Shown here: positions 691 to 48,414 of the stretch, one piece after another
Position numbering within the stretch: position 1 is the stretch's first letter
How the letters are laid out: each line of letters starts with the position of its first letter
Assembly: GCF_003611475.1 (NCBI RefSeq)
Contig: NZ_RAXT01000008.1
Location: forward strand, 1-64,000
Length of the DNA stretch: 64,000 nucleotides
Direction of reading: 5' to 3'
Source of the DNA: Acinetobacter rongchengensis
GTDB taxonomy: Bacteria; Pseudomonadota; Gammaproteobacteria; Pseudomonadales; Moraxellaceae
Made by a program: the position numbers and the translations under genes
Notes under the pieces: generated by a model
The model's input: the letters and a program-made list of their open reading frames with translations, nothing else
Database searches by the model: none
What the model was told of the DNA's origin: nothing

Positions 691-2280
691 TTATTCTTTA
701 TCATCAAATTTTTTTATTTCGACAATATGTACTTTTTCAATTTTATGACCATCCATCGTGACCACTTCAAACTCATAACCATCGGCTTGGAGTTTTTGAC
801 CATTTTCAGGTAAATGACCTAAATGGAACAGAATATAACCCGATAATGTTGAATATTGTTCAGAATCATCGACCAAATCACGCCCTAATAATAATGAAAC
901 ATGGCGAATATCGGTTGAACCTTCAAGAATAAGTGAACCATCTTCTAGACTTTCTGCGGCTGCTTCAAGTTCATCCTCATCAGGGAATTCACCAGCAATC
1001 GCTTCCAATACATCAATAGGTGTGGCAATCCCTTCAATTGAACCATATTCATTTAAGACAATCGCCATTTGTAGCGGTGCTTGACGAAGCTGTTCCATCA
1101 CCATGAGTACTTGCGCGTTTTCATGCACAATCACAGGTTCACGCAAATGCTTTTCAAAATCTAAAATGCCTGTTTCAATATAGTCATTCAAAACCTTATG
1201 GGTCAGAACCACACCTGCAATATTGTCTAATTCACCTCGTGCAACAATTAAGCGAGAATGCGTCATTGCCATTAAATGTTCTTTGATCGAAACAGCATCA
1301 TCATCTAAATCAATCCATTCCAGCTCAGGTCTTGGTGTCATAACGGACTTCACAGGACGCTCTGATAGGCCTAAAACCCCCTGAACCATAACACTATGAT
1401 AGACGCCATTTTCAGGGTCAAACATCTCATCTGCCAATGCTTGAGTTGCAAGAACATTGTCTGGTTTATGGTTTTGACTATCTGTTGCACTCAGACTTTT
1501 ACCGCCTAACATTCTCATCACAGCAGAGGCTGTGCGGAAGCGCAAATCGGTTGTAGTCACGGTCTTTTCTTGGTTTTTACGCATGGTTTGGTTAAAGAAC
1601 TCAATCATGACGGAGAAACCAATCGCAGCGTATAAATAGCCTTTTGGAATATGATAACCAAAGCCTTCTACAATGAGAGAGAAACCAATCATCATCAAGA
1701 AACATAAGCATAAAATTACAATGGTCGGATGCTTATTCACAAATTCCATGAGCGGCTTAGAAGCCCATAACATTACAGCGACAGCAATCACGACAGCAAT
1801 CATCATCACGGAAAGTTGCTTCACCATACCCACAGCGGTGATAACACTATCTAAGGAGAAAACTGCATCTAAAACTACAATTTGAACAATCACCATCCAA
1901 AATGCAGCATGTACTGGATTTTCTTCTTTGATCGGCCCTTGCCCTTCTAATTGTTCACGAAGTTCCATTGTCCCTTTGAACAATAAGAATACTCCACCAA
2001 ACAGTAATATAAGGTCACGCCCAGAAAATGCATGGTCAATGATATAAAATAACGGCTGCGTGAGGGTAATCACCCATGCGATGGATGCCAATAACACCAT
2101 CCGCATACACAATGCTAAGAGAAGCCCGATAATACGTGCTTTATTACGCTGCTCAGGCGGTAATTTTTCCGCAAGAATGGCAATAAATACGAGGTTATCT
2201 ATGCCTAAAACAATTTCTAAAATGACCAAAGTCGCAAGACCAACCCATGCAGATGGATCAGACATCCATTCGAGTATCAT
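691..2280 (-). CDS. TerC-family integral membrane protein with CBS pair and CorC/HlyC domain
   Basis: A 529-residue protein with the architecture of E. coli YoaE/YegH. Residues 1-240 form a TerC-like membrane domain with about seven hydrophobic segments and conserved acidic residues in the membrane (GIDNLVF near residue 26, [10 protein letters not shown] near 137). A linker and a CBS-domain pair follow (about 305-425, containing SVMTPRPEL), then a C-terminal CorC/HlyC domain (about 440-525). TerC proteins are linked to metal-ion (Mn) handling and CorC domains to Mg/Co efflux, so inner-membrane metal transport is the likely role but unproven. GGAG lies 8 bases before the ATG at 2280. It has its own terminator, and there is no yybP-ykoY riboswitch upstream, unlike the GDT1-family gene at 47518. 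Confidence 0.9.
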
Positions 2281-12330: not shown

Positions 12331-13173
<843 letters not shown>

Positions 13174-13510: not shown

Positions 13511-13592
13511 CAAAAAAAACTCAACTTTGGGGAAAGTTGAGCATATAAACTTTAAAACTGGGAGAAAATTCTTTTAAACCAGTGAACTTTCT
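13511..13592 (-). ncRNA. Candidate small RNA B (about 80 nt), reverse strand of the bla-omp33 gap
   Basis: Complete small transcription unit on the reverse strand: promoter (13599-13627) with exact 17-base spacing, predicted start near 13592, a first hairpin ACTGG / CCAGT with an inner AAAA/TTTT stem (13557-13583), a CU-rich stretch TTTTCTCCCAG, and a terminator with eight T. No gene precedes it on this strand for 450 bases. The TTTTCTCC stretch could pair with ribosome-binding sites, which is typical of regulatory RNAs. I do not recognise a known family. Confidence 0.5.
13512..13541 (-). terminator. Reverse-strand intrinsic terminator of small RNA B
   Basis: CTCAACTTT (13520-13528) / AAAGTTGAG (13533-13541), GGGG loop. 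Read leftward it ends in eight T (the A-run at 13512-13519). Confidence 0.85.
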
Positions 13593-13598
13593 TGATCA

Positions 13599-13627
13599 AT
13601 TATGTGAAATATATCTAACATTGTAAA
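13599..13627 (-). promoter_or_regulatory. Candidate promoter of small RNA B
   Basis: On the reverse strand TTTACA (13627-13622), 17-base spacer, CATAAT (13604-13599). Confidence 0.5.
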
Positions 13628-13997
13628 GATGATTAAACAAATAAATACCGAATGAATTATCGAGATTTTATATTATTTAGATTTAATTATCATTTTTGTA
13701 TTTTTATATAGAATAACTCACTTATTGTGCCTAAAATAGGCGAAAGCATCATAAATAATGATCATTAAATAACAGCCTCAATTGTTAATACCAATTAATA
13801 AACACAAAAACAACAATAAAACCAATCTTAAAATTTTATTTTTTGTCATCATTTTTTAACAAAATGTATTTTAGAACGATTTTATTTAGTTGTTATGATT
13901 CATTTTTTTATGGGTTGACTTTAAATGATTCGAATGCCTATTTTTCAACCACAATTTTTCTGAGTATTTCTCAAGTCTTCAATGTCCTTAAACATCA

Positions 13998-14063: not shown

Positions 14064-14960
14064 ATGAAAAAACTCGGTTTAGCCACTGCTCTATTATTAG
14101 CCATGACCGGCGCTCAAGCATACCAATTCGAAGTTCAAGGTCAATCAGAGTACATCGATACGACTGTAAATGACAAAGACTTTACTGGTGGTCTTCAAGG
14201 TACTTTCTACTTCAAAGATGTTGACTCTTCAAAAGGTCCATTGGCTGAAGCGGCGTTCTTAAACCAAGCATCTAACCTATCTTTAGCGTATAACTACGGT
14301 GAATTAGGTTCAAATGGTATCGACGTTATTGCACATAACTACGGTGCAAAAGCAGAAGCTTACCTTCCTACACCATACGTACCTGTATACGCTAGTGCTT
14401 CTTATAGCCATACTATCCTTGACAGCAAGAACGACAATGCTTCTGATGATCAAGGCGATCGTTATGCATTAGAAGTTGGTGCTTTAGCAACAAACAACTT
14501 CTTAGTTGCTGTTGGTTATACAAGTGCTGCTGACCAAGCTGCTATTGATGCATTCAACGTTATGGGTAACGGCGTTGCTAAAGCAACTGCTGAAGCTGTA
14601 ACGATTGGCGAAGACCAAGATGCGATCACTGCACGTACTAAATACGTTGGTGGTATCGATGGTACAAACATGGCTGTTGGTTTTGAATCTGGCATTATCT
14701 ATGGTGATGCTACTGCATACCAATTGAAAACAGATTTGTATTTAAATCCTAAACTAAGCGTTGGTGCTTCTTATGCTGCTTCTAGCTACGAAGGTACACC
14801 TGATTCAGCTTGGGGTGCAAATGTAAACTACTTCATCACACCTGCAATTGCTGTAGGCGCAAGCTATGTAAATGCGAACTACCAAGCAAATAAAGGCGAA
14901 GCTGTTGATTTTGCTGGCGATACGCAAACTGTTGGCGTAAATGCTAAATTCCGTTTCTAA
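14064..14960 (+). CDS. omp33-36: Omp33-36-type outer-membrane porin
   Basis: 298 residues from the ATG at 14064; the frame opens upstream at 14031, but only this ATG has GGAAAAG in place and a clean signal peptide (MKKLGLATALLLAMTGAQA, cleaved before YQFEV). The sequence closely matches my recollection of A. baumannii Omp33-36 (GTFYFKDVDSSKGPLAEAAFLNQASN). The alternating beta-strand pattern and terminal Phe (KFRF) mark a beta-barrel. The A. baumannii protein is a water channel and virulence factor linked to carbapenem susceptibility. It has its own promoter and terminator. Two diverged paralogues lie at 38541 and 39720. Confidence 0.92.
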   Translation: MKKLGLATALLLAMTGAQAYQFEVQGQSEYIDTTVNDKDFTGGLQGTFYFKDVDSSKGPLAEAAFLNQASNLSLAYNYGELGSNGIDVIAHNYGAKAEAYLPTPYVPVYASASYSHTILDSKNDNASDDQGDRYALEVGALATNNFLVAVGYTSAADQAAIDAFNVMGNGVAKATAEAVTIGEDQDAITARTKYVGGIDGTNMAVGFESGIIYGDATAYQLKTDLYLNPKLSVGASYAASSYEGTPDSAWGANVNYFITPAIAVGASYVNANYQANKGEAVDFAGDTQTVGVNAKFRF

Positions 14961-48096: not shown

Positions 48097-48186
48097 ATCT
48101 TAGTCTCTGGCTAGCAATATTTACCGATGACTTACCCCTCCCGCTAGCCTTATGGATAGTCACCTATCCGATGTGGAGTGATAAAT
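48097..48186 (-). promoter_or_regulatory. Expression platform between riboswitch and GDT1-family start
   Basis: Two hairpins on the reverse strand: GGATAG-GTGA-CTATCC (48154-48169) and a longer GGCTAGC / GCTAGCC stem (48111-48117 and 48143-48149) ending 14 bases before the ATG. No T-run follows, so control of translation rather than termination is suggested. Confidence 0.55.
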
Positions 48187-48333
48187 CAAAGGTCTTGCCA
48201 ACAAAAAATAACTGACTAAGTAAATCAGCTAAATTGGTTCTTTGCTATGATGGCCATGTTCTGTTGAACAATTATGTTGACCATCACCTATTCACTTATC
48301 CAAAGATTGTAAATAGCGGCTACTCCCCAATGA
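48187..48333 (-). ncRNA. yybP-ykoY manganese riboswitch
   Basis: On the reverse strand the 5' conserved TTGGGGAGTAGCC (plus 48318-48330), an internal GGTCAACATAATT segment within a GATGG / CCATC helix (48249-48285) that has a GTTC / GAAC hairpin inside, and the 3' conserved GGCAAGACCTTTG (48187-48199) occur in the right order. These are the invariant parts of the yybP-ykoY class, which binds Mn2+ and turns on Mn exporter genes. It lies directly upstream of the GDT1-family gene, a typical client. Confidence 0.88.
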
Positions 48334-48414
48334 AGTGCTTCTAGTTTACAATGCATTGAAACTTTTTTCACCTTTTTATCAAAAAAATCATTCTAACTTT
48401 ATAACTATGTGTCT

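Follow-up and report, generated by a model that had tools for sequence, protein, structure and literature searches.

A conserved small RNA gene beside omp33-36 in Acinetobacter whose body, in roughly half of the species, contains a box complementary to the pilA Shine-Dalgarno sequence

The minus strand divergently upstream of omp33-36 almost certainly carries a small RNA (sRNA) gene that is conserved in, and specific to, Acinetobacter; we identified it in the window (the whole 64,000-nucleotide stretch of Acinetobacter rongchengensis DNA analyzed here) and followed it through the genus. We found it in 145 of 175 genomes, with few exceptions at the same locus; even if the target is set aside, it is a strong candidate for a genus-wide regulator. 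We observed a conserved promoter-terminator unit, a terminator hairpin whose stem covaries, and complementarity between the body of the RNA and the start region of pilA, the gene for the major type IV pilin. On these sequence features, we give about an even chance to the reading that the product is an Hfq-type trans-acting sRNA, made from its own promoter, that would block the ribosome-binding regions of mRNAs, with pilA as the best target. Base-pairing sRNAs are a known kind of regulator; this member, its constant terminator loop, and the link to pilA look new as far as we searched. Among the literature matches listed, there was no Acinetobacter sRNA beside omp33-36 or acting on pilA, and A. 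baumannii sRNA catalogues may contain it. A conserved sRNA complementary to the pilA ribosome-binding region would make a layer of pilus control directly testable.

RESULTS

A promoter-terminator unit on the minus strand

The features of the locus are as follows.

13628 to 13649, minus strand: partly conserved block, approximately AAA..C..A....TTTAAT..GC, upstream of the -35
13622 to 13627, minus strand: -35 hexamer TTTACA, read from the sequence
13599 to 13604, minus strand: -10 hexamer CATAAT, 17-nt spacer from the -35
13512 to 13592, minus strand: predicted sRNA of ~81 nt, 5' end placed from the -10
13563 to 13592, minus strand: 5' hairpin AGAAAGUUC / GAAUUUUCU, predicted fold
13561 to 13568, minus strand: CU-rich box TTTTCTCC, from the alignment of species
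13512 to 13542, minus strand: intrinsic terminator with 10-bp stem, CCCC loop, and T8; U run 5 to 7 nt before the stem
13525 to 13536, minus strand: terminator apex CUUUCCCCAAAG with core UCCCCAA, from 108 copies compared
14064 to 14960, plus strand: omp33-36 porin gene (NCBIfam OMP_33_36, 518 bits, cut-off 400)
12331 to 13164, minus strand: class D beta-lactamase gene, downstream of the sRNA on the same strand

A first-pass annotation of this DNA had described a TTTACA-17-CATAAT promoter, which is present at 13627-13622 and 13604-13599, and had placed a start 7 nt past the -10; together with the eight-T terminator, this gives the ~81-nt RNA running from 13592 to 13512. The terminator arms lie at 13542-13533 and 13528-13519 around the CCCC loop, the eight T at 13519-13512, and the terminator with its preceding U run presumably resembles an Hfq module. 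The predicted fold of the 81-nt RNA has an energy of -16.6 kcal/mol (z = -2.96), equalled by 2 of 200 shuffles. The annotation had also called the CU-rich TTTTCTCC single-stranded, which does not hold for its UUUUCU, as this part is paired within the predicted 5' hairpin, on its 3' side; its statement that no gene lies nearby on this strand was mistaken, since the beta-lactamase gene starts at 13164, ~350 nt downstream. Between 12000 and 15500 there are 20 promoter-like sites where 17.0 ± 3.7 would be expected, and the single terminator compares with an expectation of 1.6 ± 1.4; promoter and terminator by themselves are at chance level in this region, and it is conservation that makes the unit convincing.

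Where the window carries the sRNA, no Rfam 15 family exceeded its gathering threshold, and a search of six orthologous loci at E 10 gave only two chance-level matches on the strand and at the position of the sRNA: RF02278 in locus L014 (20.9 bits against a cut-off of 50, E 2.7) and RF00558 in L028 (22.4 bits against 58.7, E 1.6). The sole Rfam match in the window is a Mn riboswitch (yybP-ykoY, RF00080) at 48184-48340 on the minus strand, with 60.8 bits against a cut-off of 45.

The unit is conserved across, and confined to, Acinetobacter

A DNA search with 141 bases gave matches in 75 of the 175 genus genomes, many confined to the terminator part and some at other places. Among 80 omp33-36-upstream stretches from genomes lacking such a match, 70 (counted by eye) carry, at about the same distance, a hairpin and T tail whose apex is CTTTCCCCAAGG or nearly so. 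A covariance model built on the 3' part of the unit, with its hairpin, gave a score of at least 50.8 bits (the lowest among the matches listed) in 145 of the 175 Acinetobacter genomes. The hairpin lies divergently upstream of omp33-36 in at least 138 of these 145 genomes, at a median distance of 574 nt (138 genomes), so that omp33-36 is the divergent neighbor marking the sRNA locus across the genus; the count was made among the omp33-36 places listed and is a lower bound, for the loci of genomes G161 and G114 also show omp33-36 beside the unit. Five further strong matches sit elsewhere in their genomes. When 293 genomes of the order were searched with strict filters, none outside Acinetobacter exceeded 37 bits; two Acinetobacter genomes in that set scored 60 and 57 bits, and the 11 others with any match at the E 0.01 limit scored no more than 37 bits. 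The first-pass annotation had named lack of conservation of the promoter-terminator pair as evidence against its proposal of a self-standing sRNA gene; we made this comparison, the pair is conserved across the genus, and the genus-wide conservation of the unit supports the proposal.

Thirty of the 175 genomes have no match of 50.8 bits or more; 15 of them are smaller than 3.0 Mb, and one, G026, carries the unit with a shorter stem. Locus L129, with a similar hairpin and the loop CCCU, was left out of the counts. As for paralogues, nine secondary loci (L036-L038, L041-L043, L045, L047, and L048) share terminator-like sequence only. Genome G086 has two tandem sRNA units (L004, 1533-1629 and 1840-1938, plus strand); it has 17 Omp33-36-like matches (best E 1.5e-15), none of which was found beside the sRNA unit.

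A constant terminator loop under a drifting body

For comparison of the anatomy, we used 118 loci, leaving out L044, the duplicate loci L051-L062, and those where omp33-36 was not found (e.g., L004 and L017). The terminator was found in 108 of these; L110 and L137, among the 10 without a match, end at contig ends. A strict promoter match, under a rule that itself fixed TTTAC and ATAAT, was present in 100 of the 108 copies, and all but one of these (99) have a 17-nt spacer; the eight copies without it include the A. baumannii-type copy L122 (-10 CACAAT). Upstream of the -35, positions -22, -21, -15, -7, -6, -5, and -1 of the block carry 1.2 to 1.8 bits (100 genomes), its other positions 0.3 to 1.0 bits, and positions further out mostly 0.2 to 0.6 bits (-34, 0.9; -27, 0.8); the block is possibly an activator or repressor site.

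The apex UCCCCAA is identical in all 108 copies, the match rule having required CCCC. The T tail, for which the rule required six T, mostly has eight, and T stands at 95 to 100% at three positions 5 to 7 nt before the stem. The terminator stem covaries: both sides have changed in 5 of 10 pairs, and the covariation score was unreached by 500 shuffles, with two of the five covariation measures weak (double-change pairs, 9/500 shuffles; pair types, 93/500). On another set of 33 sequences, RNAalifold saw double changes at 2 of the 10 pairs and proposed no helix besides this one; that alignment also had no consensus 5' hairpin. That the stem can vary beneath an apex that stays the same suggests that the loop is used for its sequence.

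The body of the sRNA drifts between species, with TTCTCCA in 46 and CTCC in 57 of 100 copies. In the window, TTTTCTCC occupies the place of the box GATTCTCCAYAA that is predicted to pair with pilA in other species, and it is degenerate in the window's nearest relatives. The anti-Shine-Dalgarno role that the first-pass annotation had suggested for the CU-rich box is supported in part by the copies with CTCC, but the box is poorly kept in the relatives closest to the DNA for which it was proposed.

We also considered whether the loop is a generic Acinetobacter terminator motif, and rejected this: the pattern TTTCCCCAARG is not common, yet not unique, with 35 occurrences over 5 genomes, 4 to 12 in each. 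Among 30 such loci examined, 3 are the sRNA unit and 2 are other terminators (L163 and L165), while L152 and L156 only carry T runs. At ~1440-1520 (plus strand) of L163, in genome G006, there is another short promoter-terminator-like unit with the same apex, CUUUCCCCAAGG, surrounded by genes that we read as phage-like.

Neither adjacent gene is likely to account for the unit

The first-pass annotation had proposed omp33-36 as a target, on a partial match of its ribosome-binding site to the CU-rich box. Repression of this neighbor through the box would suit the fixed neighborhood and the window's purine-rich omp33-36 Shine-Dalgarno sequence, TTGGAAAAG, but pairing is no better than with shuffled leaders: duplex energies gave a mean z of +0.37 over 100 genomes, the helix ranking placed omp33-36 in the top 5% in 2 of 104 genomes, and the apex test did so in 0 of 119. 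We therefore regard this reading as very unlikely. The strand and the ~350-nt distance would also allow the unit to be a leader or attenuator of the beta-lactamase gene instead of a free sRNA; however, the unit is kept in many other species where a GGDEF-type gene, not blaOXA, stands downstream. Because the downstream gene differs between species, we rejected an attenuator, and this reading must be called extremely improbable. The window's beta-lactamase itself falls under every OXA subfamily cut-off among the 25 best (top, OXA-229-like, 515.9 bits of 625); since no cut-off was reached, it looks like an unnamed intrinsic subfamily.

Complementarity between the sRNA body and pilA in many species

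In about half of the species, the body box AUUCUCCAYAA, in the form AUUCUCCACAA or AUUCUCCAUAA, is complementary to the pilA Shine-Dalgarno sequence UUGUGGAGAAU. From 80 pilin loci, a start was found in 75, and the sRNA body was in our set for 60; of the other 15 genomes, 11 have no strong sRNA match and G028, G046, G086, and G114 lie outside the omp33-36-anchored set. Seven of the 60 (G164, G101, G134, G172, G158, G108, and G166) were dropped because the pilin was found without a Shine-Dalgarno-like pilA start. In 32 of the 53 genomes tested, pilA ranked among the best 5% when set against 290 decoy start regions with a Shine-Dalgarno-like stretch, and the number was again 32 with 314 decoys. 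The same ranking of own-genome control genes against 314 decoys gave 0 of 17 for pilT, 2 of 13 for tfpB, 1 of 42 for blaOXA, and 1 of 33 for the GGDEF gene, besides the value for omp33-36 above. Single-genome tests against shuffled pilA starts gave p ≤0.05 in 31 of 53 genomes, and against random genomic 39-mers in 35 of 53. The per-genome rank of pilA has a median p of ~0.024, so tens of other genes could pair equally well within a single genome.

Among the 29 genomes with a TTCTCC box, 21 form a contiguous helix of 11 to 17 nt with pilA (G-U allowed), the longest in G168. Ten of the 24 genomes without this box still place pilA in the top 5%, via other helices; alternative pairings with the pilA start are UCAUAACAUUUU:GAAAUGUUAUGA in G037, G074, G032, and G098, UUCAUAACAUU:AAUGUUAUGAA in G154 and G155, and UGAAUUGUGUA:UACACAAUUCG in G038. 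The pilA Shine-Dalgarno sequence is predicted to lie in the loop of a small hairpin in 5 of the 6 leaders folded (G037 being the exception). The pilA leader (A)CATTTGTGGAGAATGTTATG is nearly identical in many species (L389, L390, L394, L413, and others), and an ATGTT context before or at the pilA start occurs in 48 of 53 sRNA-bearing genomes versus 0 of 11 without a strong sRNA match.

Twenty-one of the 53 genomes miss the top 5% for pilA (G006, G000, G066, G099, G031, G024, G112, G174, G151, G145, G169, G035, G115, G092, G093, G104, G020, G064, G119, G079, and G059), including the window's own species and all 5 of its body cluster. In the window's species, the p value for pilA is 0.21 and the box matches pilA over only 7 nt; here the pairing may be lost or replaced. 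Lineage tests do not support covariation of sRNA and pilA: when bodies were clustered at 60% identity by average linkage, there were 3 groups, one of them holding 46 genomes (Fisher p 0.11), and in a swap test with these groups, own pilA paired no better than the pilA of other groups (mean quantile 0.49). pilA was chosen after several genes had been looked at, and the genomes of the set are related. Given this post hoc choice, the relatedness, and the 21 genomes that fail, we put pilA as a target for the genus at a little under an even chance, and at less than that for the window's own species.

The terminator apex and GGGG ribosome-binding sites

In G006 and G066, both A. baumannii type, the apex UUUCCCCAA is complementary to the pilA start UUGGGGAAA over 9 nt (G006 is called A. 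baumannii on its OXA-51-family gene only). An alternative to the pilA reading is that the main job of the RNA is done by this constant apex on GGGG Shine-Dalgarno sequences of pilT, tfpB, and other genes, the body match to pilA being incidental. That the apex core does not vary while the body drifts would fit such a role, as does apex-pilT pairing, which ranks within the best 5% of 144 decoys for 15 of 29 genomes, whereas omp33-36 does so in none; the decoys include loci fetched with the loop pattern, so the test is conservative. Against it, the apex brings pilA into the top 5% for just 3 of 53 genomes, and the pilT ribosome-binding site (L328-L357) has kept its GGGG core in 28 of 29 genomes, all but G129, whether or not the genome has a strong sRNA match (G013 and G003 are among those that lack one). 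GGGGAAA before ATG is, moreover, a common arrangement, with 41 to 70 sites per genome in 5 genomes, and 52 in G000 where a backwards control gave 26. On balance, we consider a main role for the apex quite unlikely. A further alternative keeps the trans-acting sRNA but places its real targets outside the type IV pilus genes. In the median genome, pairing as good as that of pilA is reached by ~2% of decoy start regions, which leaves space for such targets, but pilA is consistent across genomes when set against the five other gene families tested, and we hold this alternative to be unlikely.

We examined all 54 GGGGAAA sites of G006 and part of those of G037. Of the 26 G006 genes with an open frame of at least 60 codons, 6 are of type IV pilus or competence type, counting a PilZ-domain gene; they are pilin, pilT (named after its orthologue in the window's genome, L341), tfpB for the pilus ATPase, and PilX-type, PilZ-domain, and comEA-type genes. 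A GGGGAAA site is also kept across genomes in a gene that we take to be nuoM, where it probably reflects coding constraint. For the GATTCTCCA box, targets were sought with the pattern TGGAGAATC...ATG in 8 genomes (30 loci) and dropped; repeated occurrences were tRNA-Asn gene ends (7 loci, ARAGORN) and the interior of a coding gene (3 loci), and a small gene with the pattern in 2 of the 8 genomes is presumably rubredoxin.

DISCUSSION

The evenly weighted reading of a trans-acting sRNA with pilA as its best target would work as follows. The sRNA would be transcribed independently from its own sigma-70-type promoter and would most likely pair with the ribosome-binding regions of mRNAs, blocking translation. 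In about half of the species, the body box would cover the pilA Shine-Dalgarno sequence; in other species, different body segments would pair with the pilA start, and in G006 and G066 the terminator apex would do so. Transcription, Hfq binding, repression, and an effect on pili and DNA uptake are what we infer from the conserved unit and its complementarity. A broader version, in which the sRNA controls type IV pili and natural transformation, its body tracking pilA and its loop pairing with GGGG sites of further pilus genes (in A. baumannii, tfpB, pilT, pilX-type, PilZ-domain, and comEA-type genes), is conceivable but improbable.

C-rich terminator loops serve as the seed in RepG of Helicobacter, CyaR of enterobacteria, and LhrC of Listeria. 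The likeness is that a C-rich loop could pair with G-rich or Shine-Dalgarno sequence, and no sequence relation is claimed; the present RNA differs in that the loop is its most conserved part, and its loop targets are candidates only.

In A. baumannii AB5075, Hfq RIL-seq reported 13 type IV pilus targets in exponential phase (PMC12802169); these fit the pilus reading, and their sRNA partners are not named in the available part of that text. According to another study, pil transcripts peak with growth phase and the pilA transcript depends on PilS/PilR (PMC8088505), so the growth-phase control published there needs no sRNA. A close counterpart is Aar (sRNA21) of A. baumannii and A. baylyi, which is an independently transcribed RNA of ~100 nt whose CUCC-type seed, at nt 14 to 17 near the 5' end, blocks Shine-Dalgarno sequences (PMC11472050); in contrast, the A. 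baumannii-type copy L122 of G006 has no CTCC and lacks an Aar-like CUCC seed near its 5' end. PtaZ, HemZ, and OmpZ are Hfq-associated sRNAs of A. baumannii, of which PtaZ and HemZ repress at start regions (PMC12802169); all three appear to derive from the 3' ends of longer transcripts, whereas the present RNA has its own conserved promoter.
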